This document shows positions 7,840 to 61,316 of a DNA stretch of 61,316 nt, piece by piece. A program made the translations under genes and the position numbers. The stretch is from a virus. The number at the start of each line of letters is the position of its first letter. Position 1 is the first letter of the stretch. The notes below the pieces were generated by a model, which made no database searches, was not told where the DNA came from, and saw only the letters and a program-made list of their open reading frames with translations. The stretch is from positions 1-61,316 of IMG/VR virus record IMGVR_UViG_3300050119_000050. The stretch is one strand, 5' to 3'.

Positions 7840-7915
7840 TGGTGGACCGGGTCGGGCTCGAACCGACGACATCTCGCTTGCAGGGCGAGTGCTCTCCCAT
7901 CTGAGCTACCAGCCC
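7840..7915 (-). tRNA. tRNA-Ala (anticodon TGC)
   Basis: 76 bases with encoded CCA. Acceptor GGGCTGG pairs with CCGGTCC and includes the G3-U70 wobble that marks alanine tRNAs; D stem GCTC/GAGC, anticodon stem CTCGC/GCGAG, loop CCTGCAA, T arm GTCGG-TTCGAGC-CCGAC. The loop places C instead of the near-universal U at position 33. A terminator follows and a TTGACA-type promoter precedes it, so it is transcribed alone. Confidence 0.9.
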
Positions 7916-10923: not shown

Positions 10924-12570
10924 TTACAGGTCGAACTCGACCCCGCCGACGATCCCGGTCAGTTCTTTCGGCGGCGTGCTGGCGGCCCGGGCGTTAGTCT
11001 GGCCCCACTTGCGCAGTTCCTTGATCAGGTCCGACTTGGACGTGCTCAACGGCACCACGTGGCTGGCGGCTTCAAGCAAGTCTTCCGTCGTGATCTCCCG
11101 GGCACCGTCTTCGAACCCAGAGTAAAGCGCGGTCGGCACCAGTTCGGCGATCTCCGCACCCGTGAAGCTCTCGGTAGCGTCGACCACTTTCGCGAAGTTG
11201 ATCTTGACGTCCTGCCGACCGTTCTGTTTCAGCGCGGCGTACAGCACGCCCTTGCGTTCGGCCGCATGCGGCAGATCGACAAAGAACACTTCATCAAAGC
11301 GGCCCTTGCGGAGAAGCTCCGGCGGCAGCGTCGACACGTCGTTAGCGGTGGCGATCACGAAAGCTTCGCCATCGCGTTCCTGCATCCATGACAGGATCGT
11401 GCCCAGTGCGTCCGCAGAGACACCGCCGTCCGACGAACCGCCGCCGGACGAACCCTGCATGGCCTTCTCGATTTCATCGATCCAGACCACACACCGGCCC
11501 ATGGCTTCGATCACCTTGAGCGCCTTGCGGAGGTTGCCTTCCGAACCGCCGACGAACTTGTCCTTCAGCGCGCCGAGGTCGAGCCGGAGGAGCGGGATGC
11601 CCCACGCGGTGGCCACAGCCTTAGCGGTCAGCGACTTGCCGCAGCCCGAGATACCGACCAGCACCGCGCCCTTGGGGGCAGGCAGGCCATACTCGCGAGC
11701 TTCCGGGCTGTAAGCCGACTTGCGAGCCACAAGCCATTTCTTCAAGTTCTCCAGCCCGCCGACAGCGTCCAAGCCGCCCTTGATAGGATCGTGCCATTCG
11801 AGCACGCGCTCACGGGCGATCACCCGCTTCTTTTCATTCGACACGATCACCGGGTCGATCTTCCGGGTTTGCACCAGCGACTTGGCATAGCACGACGCGG
11901 CCTCTTCAGCGGTCAAACCAACCGCCGCGTTGATGGCCTGATCCCGGACTTCACCCGGGCAGGCAGCCGCACGCATGGGCTTCGTCTTGTCCGGCTCGCC
12001 GGTCTTCGGATCGGTCTCGAACTCCGGCACCGAGTTGACGGCGCTGTCCAAAACCTTTTCGATCTCGCTGCGATCCGGGAGCGGAAATTCGATCACGGTA
12101 GCATGGCCTGCGATGTCGGACGGCACGTTGCCTTCCGGGGTCAGGACGATGACGGCCTGCGCCGCCTTGCGGACAACACCGGGCAGATACTTCGCGAGGT
12201 TGCGGAGTTGCCGCCGGGGCGACGTTCCCGGGAAGCCTTCAAGGAAGGCGGGCAGATCGCGGAAAATCCAAACCTGACGTTCGCCCTTCTCGCCCTTGTC
12301 CGCGTCGTCGCGAAGAGCTTTGAAGGCAGCGGCCGGGTCTTCACATCCACGATGCGCGCTCGACGGCTTGCCGTCGATGGTGGTGACACCCTGCGAGACA
12401 TCCCAGAACAAGGGCTTGTATCCGGCAGCGGCGGCGGCCTCGATCAGGAAGCCTTCGACGCGAGCCTCTTCACGGGTGGTCACCCAGATGAGGGGGTTAC
12501 GGGCGCGAAGCAATGCGGAGATGTCCTGCGCAGTCTTCTGACCCTTTGAGGTTGTTACGGTGGCGGTCAT
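10924..12570 (-). CDS. Ycf46-like AAA+ ATPase
   Basis: 548 residues. Residues 1-250 have the N-terminal Ycf46-type region (NPLIWVTTREEARVEGFL, PLFWDVSQGV). The AAA+ module follows: Walker A GISGCGKS near residue 308, Walker B CVVWIDEIEKAM near 360, sensor region VIATANDVSTLPPELLRKGR and a C-terminal lid with SFTGAEIAELVPTAL. ATP-driven remodeller of unknown target; placement next to the replication genes suggests loading or remodelling of replication proteins. It ends GGVEFDL, similar to the shared acidic-hydrophobic tails. The leader before ATG 12570 (CAGCAACTAGGAAACGC) matches that of two other genes. Confidence 0.85.
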   Translation of the reverse strand: MTATVTTSKGQKTAQDISALLRARNPLIWVTTREEARVEGFLIEAAAAAGYKPLFWDVSQGVTTIDGKPSSAHRGCEDPAAAFKALRDDADKGEKGERQVWIFRDLPAFLEGFPGTSPRRQLRNLAKYLPGVVRKAAQAVIVLTPEGNVPSDIAGHATVIEFPLPDRSEIEKVLDSAVNSVPEFETDPKTGEPDKTKPMRAAACPGEVRDQAINAAVGLTAEEAASCYAKSLVQTRKIDPVIVSNEKKRVIARERVLEWHDPIKGGLDAVGGLENLKKWLVARKSAYSPEAREYGLPAPKGAVLVGISGCGKSLTAKAVATAWGIPLLRLDLGALKDKFVGGSEGNLRKALKVIEAMGRCVVWIDEIEKAMQGSSGGGSSDGGVSADALGTILSWMQERDGEAFVIATANDVSTLPPELLRKGRFDEVFFVDLPHAAERKGVLYAALKQNGRQDVKINFAKVVDATESFTGAEIAELVPTALYSGFEDGAREITTEDLLEAASHVVPLSTSKSDLIKELRKWGQTNARAASTPPKELTGIVGGVEFDL

Positions 12571-27657: not shown

Positions 27658-28146
27658 TCAGCGTCCAGTGGTGACTAGCCAGCCCGGTGCCATCATGTCA
27701 CTTGTCCGGGTTATCCGGGAGCGCAAGCCTGCTCTCCCCTTTCCCCCAGCATTCGTCAAACCTTTTTTGTAGCGGGCGTCGTATGCCATCTCGGCATCCG
27801 GGCTGTAGGGGAAGCGGATCGCGATCCGACCTTTCCGCACGTCCCACGCCATGGCGTCGTCCTTGAACACCTGACGGCATCGCTTGTTGATCACCAACTG
27901 ATCGGTGCCTCCAACAGCTTCCCACTCGTCGTCTTCGCCGGTCAATGGCGTGAGCGGCATGTGCCGCGCGACCTTGTCGAACACGTCAAGGGTCATCGCC
28001 AGACTGCTGCCGGAGTGGTTGTACGCATAGAGCGTCTCCATCAGCGCGGTGACTTGCACCGCGATCTCTCCGTTGAAGTCGCTGTCATCGTCGAATAGAC
28101 CGGCGGCGCGAAGTTCGGCCTTGGAGTGCTGTAGCAACGTAGTCAT
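27658..28146 (-). CDS. Unknown protein
   Basis: 162 residues. Acidic N terminus (AAGLFDDDSDFNGE), a central beta segment (AMAWDVRKGRIAIRFPYSP) and a Gly/Lys/Arg-rich C terminus. No family recognised. Between 27560 and 27657 nothing else is seen. Confidence 0.65.
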   Translation of the reverse strand: MTTLLQHSKAELRAAGLFDDDSDFNGEIAVQVTALMETLYAYNHSGSSLAMTLDVFDKVARHMPLTPLTGEDDEWEAVGGTDQLVINKRCRQVFKDDAMAWDVRKGRIAIRFPYSPDAEMAYDARYKKGLTNAGGKGRAGLRSRITRTSDMMAPGWLVTTGR

Positions 28147-32167: not shown

Positions 32168-34474
32168 ATGCCAATTCGTAAACGCACCATCGGCCTTGCG
32201 CTGGACTACACTGAGAAGCACTTCGGGGTCCGCAAACTCTTCCCCATCAAGCCGGGTGCAAAGTTTCCTCCGCTCATCAAGGACAACCTCGCGAAGGCGT
32301 CATCGGACCCTGCGCAGTTGATCGCATGGGAGAACCAGTGGCCCGGTTGCAACTGGGGCCTGTCTCATCGCGTCAGCAACGTGATGGGTATTGACATAGA
32401 CACCAATCCGAAGAAGGGCAAACAGGGTCAGGCCACCTACGACGATCTCGATCTGATCTATGGATGGCCCGATACCGAGATGACGATCACGCCCTCCGGC
32501 GGCTATCACAAGATTTACGAGGCGCTGCCCGGGCTCGATATCCCGATGGCCCTCGGTGAGAACGGGATCGGCAAAGACATCGACGTGCCGAACTACACCC
32601 TGATCGCGGGCAGCACGTTCGACGATGGCACCAGCTACGTCGCGGGCAACGGTCTTGATAGCGTCCCATGTCCGCAGTGGATTTACGACGTCATCAAGAG
32701 CGCGAAGACAAAGGCACGGATCACCAACGCTGGCGAGGTAGTCGTCGAGCTTGACAAACAAACCAACATCAACACCGCCATCGACTTCCTGAAGGTCGAC
32801 GCCGAGCCCTCGATCCAAGGGTCGGGCGGTGACTACAATCTGTTGAAGGCGGCCTACTATCTCAAGGACCTTGGCATCTCGCAAGAGCTTGGTGCATCGC
32901 TGCTCAATGACTACTTCAACCCGCGCTGCGAGCCGCCGTGGGATATGGATGATCTCGCAAAGAAGATGGTGGCGGCGTACAGCTACGCCAACCTCTCGAA
33001 GGTCGGCGGCAAGACAGCGGAAGCCGACTTCGCGGATGACGATGCAGCGACAGCAGCGGCGACGCCGGTCCCCACTGGCATCTATAACGTCGAGCAGAAA
33101 AAGTACGTCACCAAGGAAGAGACCAAGGCCGAAGACGACAAGCTTTTCGCCGAGTTCTCGGACTGGGTGTGGGTCATCAACATGAAGCGGTGGATCAATA
33201 CCAAGGACGGCATCGCCGAGCGCAAGACATGGGACACGACGTCTTTCGATAGCCGCTACAACTCGCGCGTCGCGAAGAAGCGAGGCAGCGCCTCCGACAT
33301 CCTGCTTCGCCGCGCCACCGGCATCCGAAAGGTCGACACCATCGCGTTCAAGCCGGGTATGCCTCTCATCGTCACTGACGCTGGCACGTCGGCCCTCAAT
33401 CTGTATCGCACGCCGCTCATCGTCCCGCGTGAGGGCGATCTCACGTGGTGGAATGAGCATCTGGAATACCTGTTTCCGGAGCAAGAGTATCGCGGCCATC
33501 TGTTGAACTGGATGGGGTGGCTCGTCAAGAACATAACTAAGAAACCGAAGCACGCCCTGATCATTCAGGGTGAAGTCAACGGTACGGGCAAGAGCTTCAT
33601 CGGTAAAGTGCTCGCGGCCATCCTGCACTCCGCTAACGTCGCGGTCGTGCCGCAGAACGGGCTCGCGGGCCGGTTCAACTCATGGGCCGCTCAAGCGAAG
33701 CTGATCCTGATCGAAGAGTTGCGCGCTGGCGACCGCATGGCCGTCAAGGAAGCGCTGCACGACATCGTCACGGAGGATACGATCTCGGTCGAGCGCAAGG
33801 GCGTTGATCCGATCAAGGTCGACAACTGTTTCGGTGTGCTGGCCTTCACCAACGACGACGCCGCGCTCTCGCTCGACAAGACCGACCGGCGCTATCTAGT
33901 GATCAAGACTGACCGCACCAAGGCCGAGGCTGACGCCAAACAGGCCGAGGGGTATTTCATTCGGCTGTTCGCAAAAATCGACGATCCGGATGCGATGGCA
34001 GCGGTGATGTACTCGCTCGTCAATCGGGACTTCGGCGGCTACAGCGGACAGCAGGCCGCGCCGCTCACCGCTGCCAAGCAAGTCATGCATCGCGCTTCAA
34101 TGCCGGAGCTTGAACACTGGCTTGACGAGAACCGGCTCAACTGGCCTCTTGACGCGCGCATCATCCGGGTCGACGACGTCCTCGAAGCAATGCCCACGGA
34201 CCTCACACGCAAGAGCGCAAAACCTCGGATAGCCATCAAGAAGTTTTTGATGAGCGAACTGGAAATGGTTTCTCTGGGACAATGCACGACGCCGAGAGGC
34301 GACCGGCCGCACCTGTACGCGTCGAAGAGCGCGGCTGGCATCCTCATGAACCAGCCTCGGACTGTTGCGGGCAAACTATATGAAGACGACATGAAGAAAA
34401 TAAAAGCGAGCCTGCCGCTCAATCCTCTTGACACGGCGGCCGAGTTCGACGATGTTGACGATATGTTGCAGTGA
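32168..34474 (+). CDS. Prim-pol primase fused to SF3/D5-like helicase
   Basis: 768 residues. Residues 20-170 form a bifunctional primase-polymerase domain with GIDIDTNPKKG (DxD) and PSGGYHKIYEA. A central linker (about 200-300) contains LLNDYFNPRCEPP. The SF3 ATPase is at about 465-600: Walker A GEVNGTGKSFIGK, Walker B AKLILIEELRAGD, motif C VLAFTNDDAALSL and the arginine finger region TDRRYLVI. It starts and drives replication. Only replication gene on the plus strand. Ends EFDDVDDMLQ, a shared acidic tail. Confidence 0.85.
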   Translation: MPIRKRTIGLALDYTEKHFGVRKLFPIKPGAKFPPLIKDNLAKASSDPAQLIAWENQWPGCNWGLSHRVSNVMGIDIDTNPKKGKQGQATYDDLDLIYGWPDTEMTITPSGGYHKIYEALPGLDIPMALGENGIGKDIDVPNYTLIAGSTFDDGTSYVAGNGLDSVPCPQWIYDVIKSAKTKARITNAGEVVVELDKQTNINTAIDFLKVDAEPSIQGSGGDYNLLKAAYYLKDLGISQELGASLLNDYFNPRCEPPWDMDDLAKKMVAAYSYANLSKVGGKTAEADFADDDAATAAATPVPTGIYNVEQKKYVTKEETKAEDDKLFAEFSDWVWVINMKRWINTKDGIAERKTWDTTSFDSRYNSRVAKKRGSASDILLRRATGIRKVDTIAFKPGMPLIVTDAGTSALNLYRTPLIVPREGDLTWWNEHLEYLFPEQEYRGHLLNWMGWLVKNITKKPKHALIIQGEVNGTGKSFIGKVLAAILHSANVAVVPQNGLAGRFNSWAAQAKLILIEELRAGDRMAVKEALHDIVTEDTISVERKGVDPIKVDNCFGVLAFTNDDAALSLDKTDRRYLVIKTDRTKAEADAKQAEGYFIRLFAKIDDPDAMAAVMYSLVNRDFGGYSGQQAAPLTAAKQVMHRASMPELEHWLDENRLNWPLDARIIRVDDVLEAMPTDLTRKSAKPRIAIKKFLMSELEMVSLGQCTTPRGDRPHLYASKSAAGILMNQPRTVAGKLYEDDMKKIKASLPLNPLDTAAEFDDVDDMLQ

Positions 34475-34738: not shown

Positions 34739-34799
34739 GCGCTCGCACGTTAGCACCACGTGTGATGGTTCTGAATGTTGAGACGGACTGCGGTCAGAC

Positions 34800-34828
34800 G
34801 CGGGATGCGAAGCCCGCCGCCTCCACCA
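34800..34828 (+). other. tmRNA/tRNA 3'-end-like sequence
   Basis: CCCGCCGCCTCCACCA (34813-34828) equals the 3' acceptor end typical of bacterial tmRNA. It is preceded by GCGGG (34800-34804), which can pair with CCCGC, but the loop ATGCGAAG is not a canonical T loop. It may be a remnant att site, a mobile-element scar or chance. Confidence 0.3.
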
Positions 34829-34840
34829 TATAGGGAAAAG

Positions 34841-35242
34841 ATGTCTACAGACTTGGCGTATCTAGCGGGAGTTATCGACGGCGAGGGCACAGTAACTCTC
34901 ACTAAAAATAACAAACGCGATCCATTCCGCCGGATCAGTGTCAGTGTTTCTAACACAGACCTCGATCTAATTGAATGGTTGCACGCCGAGTTCGGAGGCA
35001 AGGTCAGGATACGGGCGCGTCAAAAAGCTCACTACAAGGTCGCCTATGAGTGGCGCATCGAAAGTGATCAGGCGCTCAACCTCTTGAAGCGAGTGACTAA
35101 ATATCTTCGGGTCCGAAGCCGAAAACAGCGAGCGGAGTTCATCTGCGCGAACTGGGCCAAGGTAACGAAGAGAAACGGTCACTACTCGGAAAACGAAAAG
35201 GTCGACAAGTGGGCCTTCGAGTTTGCCGTCCTCTCTATCTGA
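34841..35242 (+). CDS. LAGLIDADG homing endonuclease
   Basis: 133 residues from ATG 34841 (AGGG upstream). LAYLAGVIDGEGTVTL is a LAGLIDADG motif near residue 5; a single motif implies it works as a dimer. The middle part has the beta strands of the DNA-binding saddle (RRISVSVSNTDLDLIEWLH, VRIRARQKAHYKVAYEWRI). Free-standing and mobile; own promoter. Structured RNA follows. Confidence 0.85.
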   Translation: MSTDLAYLAGVIDGEGTVTLTKNNKRDPFRRISVSVSNTDLDLIEWLHAEFGGKVRIRARQKAHYKVAYEWRIESDQALNLLKRVTKYLRVRSRKQRAEFICANWAKVTKRNGHYSENEKVDKWAFEFAVLSI

Positions 35243-41026: not shown

Positions 41027-41299
41027 TCACTCACTTCCGGTTTTGAGCGAGCCGGGTATCTTAGCTAAATACCTCGCGCGCAGCCGCATCGCCTCATCGT
41101 AGTTTGTGCCCTCGCCCGCCAGCGTCAGGTGCGCCGTGCTCACCGGCATTCCCAAGAAGTCACCGCGCGTGATCAGTGCGATGTCGCCATCACTGTAAGC
41201 CATCTCGCCGATCAGGGTGAACTGCTCGGGCGCGAATGGCTTGATCTCGCAGATCACTTCGTCGCCGATCTCGATAGGTCTCTCGTTGCGGTCTTTCAT
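41027..41299 (-). CDS. Small beta-barrel-like protein, unknown
   Basis: 90 residues; IEIGDEVICEIKPFAPEQFT, GDIALITRGDFLGMPVSTA suggest a small SH3-like barrel. Ends in a basic helix. Confidence 0.6.
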   Translation of the reverse strand: MKDRNERPIEIGDEVICEIKPFAPEQFTLIGEMAYSDGDIALITRGDFLGMPVSTAHLTLAGEGTNYDEAMRLRARYLAKIPGSLKTGSE

Positions 41300-41565
41300 A
41301 GGTCCAGTCCTGAGAAGCGGTTTCCATATTCGGTCGGCGACAGGACGTCGCCCGTTCTAGCCTGCTCCAGCTTGATCACGAAGTCAATCAATGCTCGCGC
41401 CTCTTCCACCGTGACACCCTCGAAGCCGACCGCGACGGCATCTGGGCCAAGCCGCCCCGGTAGCAGGAACGCCGTCGTCTTGATCAAATTCGGGTTTATC
41501 GTCGAAGCCATCTCTGCCTCTTTCAACGCGGCGGCGAGCTTTGCACCTAGGTTTAGACCGTTCAT
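41296..41565 (-). CDS. Unknown protein ending NRFSGLDL
   Basis: 89 residues from ATG 41565. First gene left of the putative origin. Contains GPDAVAVGFEGVTVEEARAL and ends EYGNRFSGLDL, the motif shared with the gene at 40633. Confidence 0.6.
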   Translation of the reverse strand: MNGLNLGAKLAAALKEAEMASTINPNLIKTTAFLLPGRLGPDAVAVGFEGVTVEEARALIDFVIKLEQARTGDVLSPTEYGNRFSGLDL

Positions 41566-41749
41566 TTTTCTCAACTCTCTCACTGGGCCGCTTGCACGGG
41601 CCCGGCCGGTGGGGTGGTTTCCCAGTCCCCTTGGGGGCTCGGGTCAAACTCTAAACTCGGGCTCGCCCCGGCCCCTTTTGGGACTGGGGTGCCGGTGGTT
41701 TTGGCATGCCGTTTTTAAGCAGTCAAGAGGGGTCTTCTCATTGAACTTT

Positions 41750-41787
41750 CTCGGTCCGAGAAATTGGGGCTCGGTCCGAGAAATTGG
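41750..41787 (+). repeat. Tandem 18-bp direct repeat with 20-bp period
   Basis: CTCGGTCCGAGAAATTGG occurs at 41750-41767 and 41770-41787. The core CTCGGTCCGAG is nearly palindromic. Further TTCTCGG copies lie near 41848, 41860 and 41901, so this is probably a protein-binding array. Confidence 0.8.
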
Positions 41788-41898
41788 AGGCTCGCGGGCT
41801 CGGCCGCTTGGCATTTGTCTAAATCACAACCGTGTAACCTCGAAGGTCTTCTCGGACCTCTTCTCGGCAAGGGGTCAGCTAACCCATTGATTTCTTCT

Positions 41899-42038
41899 AT
41901 TTCTCGGCTTCTCACATCTTTTCTAATACACATACAGCACAAGGGGTATAGTAGTGACGGGGGGTGGTGGGGAGGAGAGTTTATAGTATATGGCGTGTTC
42001 TGGGGGACGATTTCATTTCATGTGAGAAGCCGAGAAAT
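41899..42038. repeat. 19-bp perfect inverted repeat pair
   Basis: ATTTCTCGGCTTCTCACAT at 41899-41917 and its exact reverse complement at 42020-42038, with 102 bases between. The inner part is purine-rich (GGGGGGTGGTGGGGAGG near 41961). Confidence 0.85.
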
Positions 42039-42207
42039 GGGTCGGATTTTCGGGTCGGAATACCACTCCGTTTTGTGGGGTATGGCTTGCCTCCGCACGA
42101 CCATGCTTCGCAGCCCTCACAAAGGGTGCTGGCAAGGCATTGCACATACAGTGGATATTGACTAATGGATCGCGCTATCACAGACAACCTAGCAGGGCAA
42201 AGCATTA

Positions 42208-42489
42208 GTTTAGGTTAATTGATTTCAAGGCCGCGTTAACCTTAATAGTTTAGATTTATTGCATATGAGGGCCCTATTAACCTTAATTCTTAACCATTTG
42301 ACCACTATGGAGCGGCCATTAACCCTACTTATTAAGGTTAATCAGAGGGTTAGGTGCAGTATGCATGGGTGGATGTGGATGTCAACACTACTATACTACC
42401 TATGCCTATTAACCTTAACTATTAAGGTTAATGACACTATGGTATCGTAGTAGTGTTGTGGCATTAACGTTAATAATTAAGGTTAATGC
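42208..42489. repeat. Array of TTAACCTTAA palindromes (iteron/operator array)
   Basis: Core TTAACCTTAA or its complement is at 42236-42245, 42277-42286, 42332-42341 and in two large palindromes: 42408-42432 (11-bp arms, CTA centre, perfect) and 42461-42489 (13-base arms, one mismatch). CAACACTACTA at 42382-42392 and TAGTAGTGTTG near 42448-42458 flank the first palindrome as a further inverted pair. Confidence 0.8.
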
Positions 42490-42684
42490 GCGATCACGCT
42501 TGACCACTACCGATAGATGGTGCATGGTAGGATGGCGCGAGATACGGGGTAGGCACCCCAAATCGCGACCATATGGCAGGTGCAATGTGCCCTAGCCTGC
42601 ACGCTTTCGACCCGTTTTGAGCTAAATTCCGAAAAATAAAAATCCCTAATTCCGGAAAATGTTTCCCTGACCCACAATTTAGGC

Positions 42685-42713
42685 TTGACACGACCGCCGC
42701 GATCCATTAGGGA
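42685..42713 (+). promoter_or_regulatory. Rightward promoter of the 42746 block
   Basis: TTGACA (42685-42690), 17 bases, TAGGGA (42708-42713), 32 bases before ATG 42746. Confidence 0.55.
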
Positions 42714-42745
42714 ACCGGACCACGCCCTCTCCTACGGAGCGACAG

Positions 42746-43027
42746 ATGTCCACACGTTTAATCGCCGAGCACGTCGGCCCGGAAGCCGCACACCGCGTCC
42801 TCACGGAGACCCATCGACAGTTCGAAGACCTCGGCCTGCAGCCGCGTCATGCGCGCCGCCTCCGTGAGCTTCAACTCGACCGCATCCGCGAGACGCACGT
42901 CATCGTCGGCGATCATCCGCCGGAGCCACGGCGCAATCTTGATCCGTGCGACTGCAACGACGGCTCGACCGTCGCGCAGTGCAAAGGCGCGGCGTGCAAA
43001 TCTCACAACCGATGTTGCTGGCAATGA
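42746..43027 (+). CDS. Small helical protein with Cys cluster
   Basis: 93 residues. Helical basic N-terminal 65 residues (RQFEDLGLQPRHARRLRELQ), then PCDCNDGSTVAQCKGAACK, a Cys-rich end that may bind zinc. First gene of the right block. Confidence 0.6.
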   Translation: MSTRLIAEHVGPEAAHRVLTETHRQFEDLGLQPRHARRLRELQLDRIRETHVIVGDHPPEPRRNLDPCDCNDGSTVAQCKGAACKSHNRCCWQ

Positions 43028-43173: not shown

Positions 43174-43529
43174 CCGAACCAACCTACGACCCGGTCGCCA
43201 AACGATGGAGCGACGACGCGCCGATCACCGACGCGGAGAAGCACGCCTACTGTCGACGGCGCTGGAACCATGACGCGGTCTTTCTGTCGCCAGTCGTCTA
43301 CGAAGCGGCCCGGCGCGCGGACTTCGACATGCGCACCTTCGTGATCAACCAGCCGATCCCGGTCGATGGCGGCACAGTGACTGGCACCATCATGACCGCC
43401 GAGAAAATGAAATCGCAGTATGCGAAGGGCCCTGCGCACTCAACCTTCGGACCGTCGAGCTTTCTGCGCTGGAACGATTGTCCGGGAGCAACCAAGAAGG
43501 ATGAGCCAGATGGCGGGAAGACCTCTTAG
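43170..43529 (+). CDS. Unknown protein
   Basis: 119 residues, polar; RADFDMRTFVINQPIPVDGG and MTAEKMKSQYAKGP. Coupled to its neighbours. No family recognised. Confidence 0.6.
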   Translation: MTEPTYDPVAKRWSDDAPITDAEKHAYCRRRWNHDAVFLSPVVYEAARRADFDMRTFVINQPIPVDGGTVTGTIMTAEKMKSQYAKGPAHSTFGPSSFLRWNDCPGATKKDEPDGGKTS

Positions 43530-43809
43530 TCCAAATCGCGAGCTTGCGCTGCTCATGGGCGACAAGACCTATCACGGATCGCTGCACGCGAAGTGCGGCA
43601 CCAACGAGCGCTACGTCACGGGCGGCGGCTGCGTGCACTGTGCGCGCCTGATCGCGACCGAGCAGCGCGACGCGAGGAAGTTTCTGAAAGAGCATGCGGC
43701 CGAGCAGGCCAACGAGAAAATTCGAGAACAGGACGGCGTCACCCTTGACAGCGTCCCAACGAATGGCTTATCAGCATTCGAACAGTCCATCGAAGACGAC
43801 CTCATGTGA
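43510..43809 (+). CDS. Small protein with zinc-like site and IEDDLM tail
   Basis: 99 residues from ATG 43510 (AAGGA eight bases upstream). LHAKCGTNERYVTGGGCVHC looks like a zinc site. Ends FEQSIEDDLM, a shared acidic-hydrophobic tail. Confidence 0.65.
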   Translation: MAGRPLSPNRELALLMGDKTYHGSLHAKCGTNERYVTGGGCVHCARLIATEQRDARKFLKEHAAEQANEKIREQDGVTLDSVPTNGLSAFEQSIEDDLM

Positions 43810-49445: not shown

Positions 49446-49621
49446 CCGGGGCAGAACTGATGGACCGCGTCATCTGGACGCGGTTCATGGCTGCTATCGG
49501 CCCCGAACTACGGGACCTGTTCCAGACTGCGGAAATTCCGAAAAATAAGCCCGGCGAAAAATCACTGATTAGGGCGTGTAGCTCAACGGAAGAGCATCGG
49601 TCTCCAAAACCGAAGACGTAG
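49442..49621 (+). CDS. 59-residue frame running into tRNA-Trp
   Basis: GTG 49442 overlaps the previous stop. The first 43 residues (ELMDRVIWTRFMAAIGPELR) look genuine; the last 16 are encoded by the tRNA. A natural stop upstream of the tRNA is lacking, so the tRNA may have been inserted into the gene's end. Confidence 0.4.
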   Translation: MTGAELMDRVIWTRFMAAIGPELRDLFQTAEIPKNKPGEKSLIRACSSTEEHRSPKPKT

Positions 49622-49763
49622 GTTCGACACCTAACTCGCCCGCCAATCCGATCCATGCCTCGCCCAGTTGCTGGGAGGCCATTCGCTCACGCACTCGGGC
49701 GAAGGCCCGGCGTTCAAGCCGAGCCAGTTCGATGATGATGTCGTCGTGATCCTGCGCGGTCAT
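49569..49763 (-). CDS. Small helical protein, antisense end in tRNA
   Basis: 64 residues; ATG 49763 overlaps the upstream stop. Helical first 45 residues (DDIIIELARLERRAFARVRE). The last 25 residues are antisense to tRNA-Trp, the mirror of the situation on the other strand. Confidence 0.45.
   Translation of the reverse strand: MTAQDHDDIIIELARLERRAFARVRERMASQQLGEAWIGLAGELGVEPTSSVLETDALPLSYTP
49572..49645 (+). tRNA. tRNA-Trp (anticodon CCA)
   Basis: 74 bases with encoded CCA. Acceptor GGGCGTG/CTCGCCC (U6-U67 mismatch), D stem GCTC/GAGC, anticodon stem TCGGT/ACCGA with loop CTCCAAA (anticodon CCA), T arm GTAGG-TTCGACA-CCTAA (G49-A65 mismatch), discriminator G. Overlapped by coding frames on both strands. 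Confidence 0.85.
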
Positions 49764-54053: not shown

Positions 54054-54597
54054 AGACGCACTCGGCCACGGCAGCGACACGCGAGGCATGCGTCTGGGCA
54101 AGACGCATACGGTCGGCCCGCACTCGGCGAAGGTTTACAAAGCTCCCGGCGAAAGCGAACTCGTCACCAAGACGTATCGCAACGGCGCGTACCAATCAAA
54201 GAACGATTATCACACTGACGACATGGGCGATGCCAATGGCACCGCTCTCTCGCAGTTGAACCGCTGGGCCGCGCAAGACGTCGGCAAAGTCAGCAACTCG
54301 GCGGCGGCCTCCGAACTCGCGAGCGGCGCGAAGACCGCGACGATCCCGACGCACGATGGCATGGCGGGAAATCCGCGCAACGAAGACAGCTATCCCGGCG
54401 CAGGCCCGGCCCCATCGCACTGGAGCGGCCCGGATCAAGCGAAGTACAACAAGGCGAATGGCTACAACGAACACGGCAGCCGTCACGGTTACAACCCCGA
54501 CGCGGTCAATAGCGCCATCGCCTCTTCGAACCGTGCCGGTCGCCGGATCGGCGGCAAAGAGGCCAGCGCGATCCACCGACTGTTGAAGGGCCGCTGA
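54046..54597 (+). CDS. KDxxGHGS-tag protein 3
   Basis: 183 residues. Begins MAKDALGHGSDTRGM; contains ASELASGAKTATIPTHDGM and a Tyr/Asn/Gly-rich end (NEHGSRHGYNPDAVNSAI). Probably structural or scaffolding by position, which is inference. Confidence 0.65.
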   Translation: MAKDALGHGSDTRGMRLGKTHTVGPHSAKVYKAPGESELVTKTYRNGAYQSKNDYHTDDMGDANGTALSQLNRWAAQDVGKVSNSAAASELASGAKTATIPTHDGMAGNPRNEDSYPGAGPAPSHWSGPDQAKYNKANGYNEHGSRHGYNPDAVNSAIASSNRAGRRIGGKEASAIHRLLKGR

Positions 54598-54827
54598 TGC
54601 ACCGAATGCAGCGGCGGTCGCGCCACGCGCACGCGGCTGGAATATCCATCCTTGTGCCGCACAGCAGTTTCACTCCAACGCCGACGATGTCGCCGTTGGA
54701 GATCGCGTTTCTGAAGGGACGCGATGCCAAGCGCCGAGGGCGGCCTGCGGAGAACCCGCATAACGATTTGTTAACCCCAAATAACGGGGAGCTTGCGGCG
54801 GAGTGGGAGCGGGGGTATAACACATGA
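54597..54827 (+). CDS. Small protein, weak RMF-like pattern
   Basis: 76 residues from ATG 54597, or 46 from ATG 54687. IAFLKGRDAKRRGRPAENPH and ELAAEWERGYN faintly resemble ribosome modulation factor (G-A--G-----P, W--G). Not firm. Confidence 0.5.
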   Translation: MHRMQRRSRHAHAAGISILVPHSSFTPTPTMSPLEIAFLKGRDAKRRGRPAENPHNDLLTPNNGELAAEWERGYNT

Positions 54828-59845: not shown

Positions 59846-61316
59846 ATGGCGCTTCCTGACAAACATCCCGAGTACGTCGAACGGCTCGGCGAGTGGATAC
59901 AGATGGTCGACACCTACGCGGGCGAGCGCGCGGTCAAATCGAAGCGTCTCGACTACCTTCCAGCGACCGAAGGCATGGTGATGGACGGCATGGTCACGCC
60001 ATCCTCGCCCGGCTGGAAAGATTACGAGGCGTATCTGCTTCGAGCCTACTTCCACGACGTTGTCAAGGACGCCGTGAAGGCCATGGTGGGCATCATGCAC
60101 AACAAGCCCGCCGTGATCAATCTCCCGGTGAAGCTCGCGGACATGATGACGAAGGCGACGAAGAAGGGCGAAACGCTGCAACAGTTGCTGCGCCGGATCA
60201 ACGTAGCGCAGCTTGTCATGGGCCGCTGCGGTTTGCTCGCGGAGGTCCCAGCGGGCCAGTCCATCGACATGGCGGTCCCATACATCACTTTCTACGACGC
60301 GATGCGCATCATCAACTGGGACGCGGGCGCGCTCAATGAGGGCGCGGAAGAGCTTGAACTCGTCGTGCTCGACGAGGGCGGCTATCGGCGCGAGGGCTTC
60401 ACATGGAAGACCGAACGCAAGTATCGCGTGCTCACGCGCGGCGGTCAGCCCGAACTCGACAGCGGCTGGGAACGCCCGCCGGTCGGTGCTCCCTACGCAG
60501 TCGCCACCAAGGTCAACGACACCTCGATGCCGACGCTGGCGGACTTCACTTATCCGTCCATCGGCGGTCGCACGCTCAATCAAATTCCGTTCGTCTTTGT
60601 CGGCGCGGATGATCTGGTCCCCGAGCCCGAGACCTCACCGCTGCTCGGCCTGTCCAACCTCGCGCTGGTGATCTATCGCGCCGAGGCGGACTATCGCCAG
60701 ACCCTGTACTTGCAGGGCCAGCAGACGCTGGTCATCATCGGTGGCGCGGTCGACGAAGCCGCGCCGGGCAAAATCCGGACCGGCAACAAAGGCGTCATCG
60801 ATCTGAAGATCGAAGGCGACGCGAAATATATTGGCGTCTCTGCGACCGGGCTCGGCGAAATGCGCCAGTCGCTGAAGCAGGATCAGGATGCTGCCGCTGC
60901 GCTCGGCGTCGCGTTCTTGGATGTCGGCAATGCTCGCGGCGAAGCCGGTGAAGCGCTCCGCATCCGCGTCGCCGCACGCACGACCACGATCTCATCCATC
61001 GCCCAGTGCGGCGGGGCCGCGCTTGAACAGGTTCTGAAGTTCTGTGCGGAGTTCGTCGGCGCTGATCCGGACGAAGTCTCGGTCAATCCGACCACGAACT
61101 TCGCCGACCAGACCGTCGCCGGGGCCGCGCTGCTCGCGTTTATGCAGGCCAAGCAACTCGGTTTGCCCTTGTCTCTCCGATCCATGCATCGTATGATGCA
61201 AATGAACGACATGACAGAAATGGACTTCGATGAAGAGAACGAACAGATCGAAGAAGAAGCCTCGTCCATGCTTGGAACGATGGTCGGACCGTTTCAAGAC
61301 ACGGTCACCGATGATA
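59846..61316 (+). CDS. Portal protein, DUF4055-type, 3' end cut by window
   Basis: 490 residues visible, no stop before the window end. AGGA precedes ATG 59846. YLPATEGMVMDGMV, RAYFHDVVKDAVKAMVGIMH and the later GLGEMRQSLKQDQDAAAALG fit the DUF4055 portal group; a Met-rich acidic end (RMMQMNDMTEMDFDEENE) is beginning to appear. It forms the ring through which DNA enters the head. Confidence 0.75.
   Translation, partial: MALPDKHPEYVERLGEWIQMVDTYAGERAVKSKRLDYLPATEGMVMDGMVTPSSPGWKDYEAYLLRAYFHDVVKDAVKAMVGIMHNKPAVINLPVKLADMMTKATKKGETLQQLLRRINVAQLVMGRCGLLAEVPAGQSIDMAVPYITFYDAMRIINWDAGALNEGAEELELVVLDEGGYRREGFTWKTERKYRVLTRGGQPELDSGWERPPVGAPYAVATKVNDTSMPTLADFTYPSIGGRTLNQIPFVFVGADDLVPEPETSPLLGLSNLALVIYRAEADYRQTLYLQGQQTLVIIGGAVDEAAPGKIRTGNKGVIDLKIEGDAKYIGVSATGLGEMRQSLKQDQDAAAALGVAFLDVGNARGEAGEALRIRVAARTTTISSIAQCGGAALEQVLKFCAEFVGADPDEVSVNPTTNFADQTVAGAALLAFMQAKQLGLPLSLRSMHRMMQMNDMTEMDFDEENEQIEEEASSMLGTMVGPFQDTVTDD

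Follow-up and report, generated by a model that had tools for sequence, protein, structure and literature searches.

The window, i.e., the whole stretch of DNA analysed here, is a single IMG/VR record of 61,316 bases and represents a fragment of a genome of about 120 kb, the collinear relatives of which reach 127 kb (G003). Its middle 12 kb has no close DNA match in 50,697 phage records. Two outward-facing genes are separated by a gap of 1,162 bp (Table 1). Most genes to its left, up to 41583, point leftward (helicase, PolA-type polymerase, exonucleases), with the PrimPol gene as an exception, and most of those to its right, from 42746, point rightward (small genes, then the terminase and a likely portal). 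The sole ORF of at least 80 aa lying wholly within the gap, 41764-42165, has no homolog in the compared relatives. The GC content is 0.500 in the gap and 0.603 in the remaining window; with 0.547 in the left half of the gap, the AT-richness is concentrated in the box array at 42200-42500, where the value falls to 0.375, lower than in any other 300 bp of the window. The first-pass annotation of this DNA had described 1.16 kb free of genes at the point where gene direction flips outward, with a stronger AT-richness than elsewhere, and both descriptions hold, the latter mostly owing to the array.

Several other genes of the window deserve mention. The gene at 27658-28146 (minus strand) shows a clear match to the Tad3 family (Type I Thoeris inhibitor, E 3.5e-22) and is an anti-defence gene. 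The 76-aa protein encoded at 54597-54827 (plus strand) is conserved in relatives and has a weak match, under the curated cut-off, to the ribosome modulation factor RMF (E 4e-4). A 155-aa ORF at 34775-35242 (plus strand), possibly a mobile insertion, has a strong match in Sphingobium phage Lacusarx (74324-74869) and none called in the collinear relatives. Genes for tRNA-Ala (tgc) and tRNA-Trp (cca) are located at 7840-7915 and 49572-49645, respectively, and a portal-like gene at 59846 is cut by the window end.

The array contains six exact TTAACCTTAA boxes and eight with at most one mismatch, all inside 42209-42486, whereas 1,000 dinucleotide-shuffled versions of the gap gave at most one and two, respectively; at least five such cores had been reported before. 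The boxes form pairs of the design TTAACCTTAA-N3-TTAAGGTTAA, in which they are 13 bp apart, and the general form of a pair is TTAACC-N11-GGTTAA. Five pairs were observed in the gap and none in the shuffles. The segment 42408-42432, described earlier as a perfect 25-bp palindrome, does have two perfect 11-bp arms, but its 3-nt centre, CTA, is itself non-palindromic. The 29-bp near-palindrome at 42461-42489 proved to have 14-nt arms with one mismatch, and the flanking elements CAACACTACTA and TAGTAGTGTTG at 42383 and 42448, also recorded in the first-pass annotation, make up an exact inverted pair with no other copy in the window. Together with the flanking CACTACTA/TAGTAGTG, pairs 4 and 5 (42403-42495) could fold as one long ssDNA hairpin (z -7.4), a potential that exists because the pairs are inverted.

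Table 1. Features of the divergent gap and of associated genes in the window (positions in the 61,316-base record).
Feature	Position	Strand	Remarks
Whole divergent non-coding control region	41584-42745		same place in G001, G003, G006, G008, G011, G015
Left flanking gene	41296-41583	minus	diverges from right gene
Right flanking gene	42746-43027	plus	diverges from left gene
Left half, seven CCGAGAA/TTCTCGG iteron-like repeats	41748-42036		starts 41748, 41756, 41776, 41849, 41861, 41901, 42030
Least stable 50 bp of left half, candidate unwinding element	41886-41935		nearest-neighbour stability scan
Left arm, perfect 19-bp inverted repeat including iteron-like repeats	41899-41917	plus	
Right arm of that 19-bp inverted repeat	42020-42038	minus	
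Box pair 1	42236-42258		degenerate second half
Box pair 2	42277-42299		degenerate second half, overlapping single TTAACCAT at 42290
Box pair 3	42319-42341		two mismatches
Candidate leftward promoter P_L, TTGACA-N16-CATACT	42358-42385	minus	23 bp from box pair 4
CAACACTACTA, flank of P_L	42383-42393	minus	inverted copy 42448-42458
Box pair 4	42409-42431		exact TTAACCTTAA-N3-TTAAGGTTAA
Box pair 5	42464-42486		TTAACGTTAA-N3-TTAAGGTTAA
Candidate rightward promoter P_R1, TTGACC-N17-CATGGT	42500-42528	plus	13 bp from pair 5; position kept in relatives
Conserved leader block ACGGGGTAGGnCCCC ... GAAAAATAAAAAT	42540-42672	plus	aligned in six genomes
Candidate second rightward promoter P_R2, TTGACA-N17-TAGGGA	42685-42713	plus	
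PrimPol + DUF5906/VapE-like helicase	32168-34474	plus	possible left-half initiator, judged by domain content only

By comparison of whole records, the window was placed in a collinear group together with the six records named in the first line of Table 1. In these seven genomes 29 box pairs are present in the same divergent gap, four to five in each, and none elsewhere in the genomes, which answers favourably the comparison between related phages suggested in the first-pass annotation. Scanning 2.9 million viral contigs for the box array pattern yielded 16 stretches, and two of the contigs concerned were also recovered independently via the right-flank gene. The most frequent arrangement in the window group is inward-facing TTAACC with an offset of 17, and the same holds for the phages MMDA13 and Lacusarx and the genomes G004 and G005, the last of which is grouped with the Lacusarx/CbK-like phages by its terminase. 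The gap is a real, conserved, phage-specific control region.

Promoter predictions made on single genomes are no better than those on shuffles, and therefore the weight of the candidate promoters rests on conservation. A TTGACA-like -35 of the P_L type is also present in G003 and G008, at 23 and 24 bp from the pair, and the distance between the pair and the -35 of P_L is 23-24 bp wherever both were called. For P_R1 this distance is 13-14 or 22-25 bp (13 in the window), i.e., one helical turn apart, the values for G001 and G003 depending on the counting of a degenerate second half-site and that for G006 having been taken by eye from the alignment. Eight pairs in G005 have a measured promoter, and seven of them end 49-50 bp upstream of its -35, the remaining one 59 bp upstream; TTAACCAT-like sites are located 27-28 bp beyond the pair, and 37 bp beyond it in the 59-bp case. 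This geometry, upstream of the -35 and with one DNA face kept, indicates transcription control, and because the boxes lie upstream of the -35 instead of over it, activation is slightly favoured as the sign of the putative regulation.

Right of the array, between two promoter-like sites, a leader block (ACGGGGTAGGnCCC ... GAAAAATAAAAAT) is found, the pattern of which matched four of the 2.9 million contigs, every one of them array-bearing. A structured leader RNA was considered and rejected: RNAalifold gave three pairs with zero compensatory change, and the only Rfam result was a sub-threshold miRNA match, due to the inverted repeat. The leader is conserved as sequence rather than as an RNA fold.

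Each of the nine phages tested from Caulobacterales or Sphingomonadales hosts carries the single box TTAAGGTTAA (Delta 6 copies, BabaJaga 7, CbK 4, CcrSC 79, Bajun 4, Lacusarx 12, EliS-L02 41, RXM 5, MMDA13 2), whereas no copy was found in four Rhodobacterales phages (RDJL3, DSS3P8, RcXuper, RcSimone-Hastad) or in six gamma/betaproteobacterial cousin phages; the backwards control box was absent from all 19 phages of this small, homology-chosen sample. Three of the Rhodobacterales phages lack the box despite kinship with carriers, DSS3P8 and RcXuper being cousins of Lacusarx by terminase and RcSimone-Hastad a cousin of Delta by polymerase. The box therefore tracks host order across several phage lineages, and its presence suggests that the host of the window belongs to the Caulobacterales, the Sphingomonadales or a neighbouring order.

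Sphingomonas phage vB_StuS_MMDA13 (MN820898; PMC7472734) resembles the window in having a 1,186-bp non-coding region (GC 50%) between opposite gene arms, with box pairs at its right end, but it has two pairs only, with a TTAACCAT direct-repeat set beside them, and its gene content is largely unrelated. The CbK-like phages (Lacusarx, EliS-L02, CcrSC) carry the same box in promoters of their terminal-repeat regions, and in Lacusarx it is found upstream of sigma70-like promoters at recurring distances; in these phages, however, the boxes are mostly single and spread over many genes rather than gathered in one hub. Nearly all 79 boxes of the Caulobacter phage CcrSC (MH588547) lie within its terminal repeats. 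Variants of the spacing were also noted: a 156-kb phage, G007 (L048), has the same box repeatedly at 15-bp and not 13-bp spacing (e.g., 11404-11419 and 12207-12222), and the loci L051 and L053, and L005 and L019, have arrays of pairs upstream of genes with a period of 47-48 bp (pair, 34 bp, pair).

In bacterial chromosomes the picture is negative. The exact inverted box pair was found 0 times in 257 Gb of bacterial genome contigs, the box pair was present in one of 115 alphaproteobacterial genomes, a class-wide sample showing no enrichment, and the single box was not enriched in 289 alphaproteobacterial genomes, likewise class-wide, scoring below the backwards control. A chromosomal regulon was rejected on these class-wide samples and on a relaxed pattern, which returned 47 dispersed stretches, most of them AT-rich or simple repeats and none a phage-like array. 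This lack of chromosomal enrichment weakens the case for a host regulator with its own regulon, though the sample is class-wide.

The left half of the gap is organised differently. Its CCGAGAA repeats, among which a tandem 18-mer occurs at 41750 and 41770, number seven, against at most four for any shuffled 7-mer (0 of 200 shuffles), so that short tandem repeats are present above chance. In each of nine genomes, a stability scan run without a null model placed the least stable 50 bp either between the repeats or next to them. The repeats themselves differ between relatives, with seven CCGAGAA in the window, nine ACTCAGA in G006, eight CTGGCAC in G015 and fewer in G008; the signal is weak or absent in G001, G003, and G011, and MMDA13 and, marginally, Delta have left-half repeat sets of their own. 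Such diverging repeats round a weak duplex would be expected of an iteron origin that co-evolves with its initiator. The left half, with phage-specific repeats round an AT-rich stretch, is more likely to be the origin than the TTAACC array, and the PrimPol-DUF5906 protein is a possible initiator for these repeats. The likeness to iteron-type origins lies in the short repeated elements round a weak-duplex stretch and does not extend to the TTAACC array; the differences are that no initiator was found and that skew gives no support.

From the box pairs, their conservation in one place, their phasing to promoters and their host-linked distribution we infer protein binding and regulation, including its sign. 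The TTAACCTTAA array is probably a transcription-control region in which paired boxes occupied by a DNA-binding protein steer the divergent arms, the left half of the gap being the likelier origin. A sequence-specific DNA-binding protein would occupy the TTAACC-N11-GGTTAA pairs between and beside divergent sigma70-type promoters, and, once bound, would set the timing of the leftward arm (replication, early) and of the rightward arm (small genes, then packaging).

Other explanations have to be weighed against this one. The main idea of the first-pass annotation, that the TTAACC boxes are initiator-binding iterons of a replication origin, is probably wrong, and as an account of the array it is very unlikely. 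The array is indeed AT-rich, present in a single copy per genome and located at the turn of gene direction, and in six genomes the cumulative AT-skew minimum falls at the array or within about 0.3 kb of it. However, skew at 4-fold sites tracks the coding strand, so the AT-skew turn is explained by gene direction or transcription; no skew turn independent of gene direction was found at the array, and GC skew, which had been proposed as a check, has no extremum there. The box, moreover, precedes gene after gene in Lacusarx and G005 and is scattered over kilobases in EliS-L02 and CcrSC, and the neighbouring left half has a separate repeat set around a weak-duplex core. Host CtrA is the sole known candidate binder, but its canonical spacing is absent, and the array is unlikely to belong to the published "lytic deferment" type of CtrA control region, in which CtrA on TTAA half-sites couples phage transcription to the host cell cycle. 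Mascolo et al. 2022 (PMC9437464) describe TTAA-rich gaps of Alphaproteobacteria phages as CtrA-binding regions, their main example being Brevundimonas phage Delta (vB_BsubS-Delta, MN862068), the best-studied case, in which CtrA binds the divergent gap and represses. This gap is TTAA-packed and has the layout of the window gap (1,312 bp, GC 0.497 vs 0.625); re-read here, it holds four box pairs of the same design, with none outside it, and the replication and terminase proteins of Delta are related to those of the window (25-36% identity). The sequence directly upstream of DELTA_120, which fits the published description of the 81-bp CtrA-bound probe, shows one pair along with three N7 sites. 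TTAA half-motifs can serve CtrA, being functional in Caulobacter (PMC4287350), and TTAACC resembles the CtrA half-site TTAACCAT. Delta differs, however, in that canonical TTAA-N7-TTAA sites are also present, which the text consulted treats without separating them from the box pairs. The seven window-group gaps contain 0 TTAA-N7-TTAA (offset 11) vs 43 N9 arrangements (offset 13), and the region is therefore not classed as a CtrA region, although CtrA may still read half-sites in it. Divergent gene blocks separated by a large gap, as in one of the several layouts published for CtrA-site (LPEG) phages, are indeed found at 41584-42745 and in the six relatives, but the motif concentrated in it (29 in gaps, 0 outside) is the box pair and not the CtrA motif, with no clustering of canonical N7 sites. 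In G005 and G004, TTAACCAT and the box pair are found at separate distances from the -35, which suggests two readers. CtrA is known from Rhodobacterales too, yet the four tested phages of that order are without the box.

As for the protein that reads the box, a regulator encoded by the phages and circulating among those of the same host orders, with the boxes as its operators, is a close alternative to a host factor, though taken by itself it is rather less than probable. The box is phage-specific, a small dimeric repressor would fit the paired 10-bp dyads, and HigA-type repressors bind similar TAACGTTA dyads (PMC6393540), which is a lead only; a HigA/GraA-like reader was not retained, the likeness being one of resemblance alone. 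Against such a regulator, no regulator family is common to the window group, Delta, Lacusarx, and MMDA13, yet the site barely varies, and one would expect a phage-specific reader and its site to drift together, as seen in the left repeats. Pfam found no known regulator family among the scanned proteins of the window, itself a genome fragment, nor was a common one found in the array phages compared. A phage OmpR/CtrA-type regulator (PF00486) is absent from the window group, bar a weak sub-threshold match in G006, and the small conserved proteins beside the array were discarded as binders, that encoded at 43420-43809 being zinc-ribbon-like and unlinked to other array phages, and the box being present also in phages without such proteins. 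A literature search with the box letters gave no regulator of the TTAACC box among the matches listed. Of the earlier suggestion of an operator array for a phage regulator, the operators are well supported by conserved position, phasing to divergent promoters and promoter-upstream pairs in other phages; the phage regulator was not found. Within the transcription-control reading, the balance tips slightly towards a host factor rather than a phage-borne reader, since phage lineages that are unrelated but share a host order have the same box, and since the box stays constant across lineages while the array phages have no regulator family in common. Tentatively, TTAACC-N11-GGTTAA may be a control element unseparated until now and distinct from CtrA sites, acquired independently by unrelated Caulobacterales and Sphingomonadales phages and read by one host DNA-binding protein.

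Alphaproteobacteria phages are known to have a "divergent TTAA gap", and the gap studied here is a variant of it, its new part being the distinct paired box. Published work credits TTAA-rich gaps to host CtrA; the paired box shares such gaps but has another geometry, and the window group, in which it occurs without any canonical CtrA site in the gap, separates two signals that were possibly read as one. In addition, the gap contains a specific candidate for the origin, marked by a set of repeats whose sequence has diverged. If the reader of the box is a host protein, unrelated phages would converge on an undescribed host signal; if it is phage-borne, they would have a switch in common.
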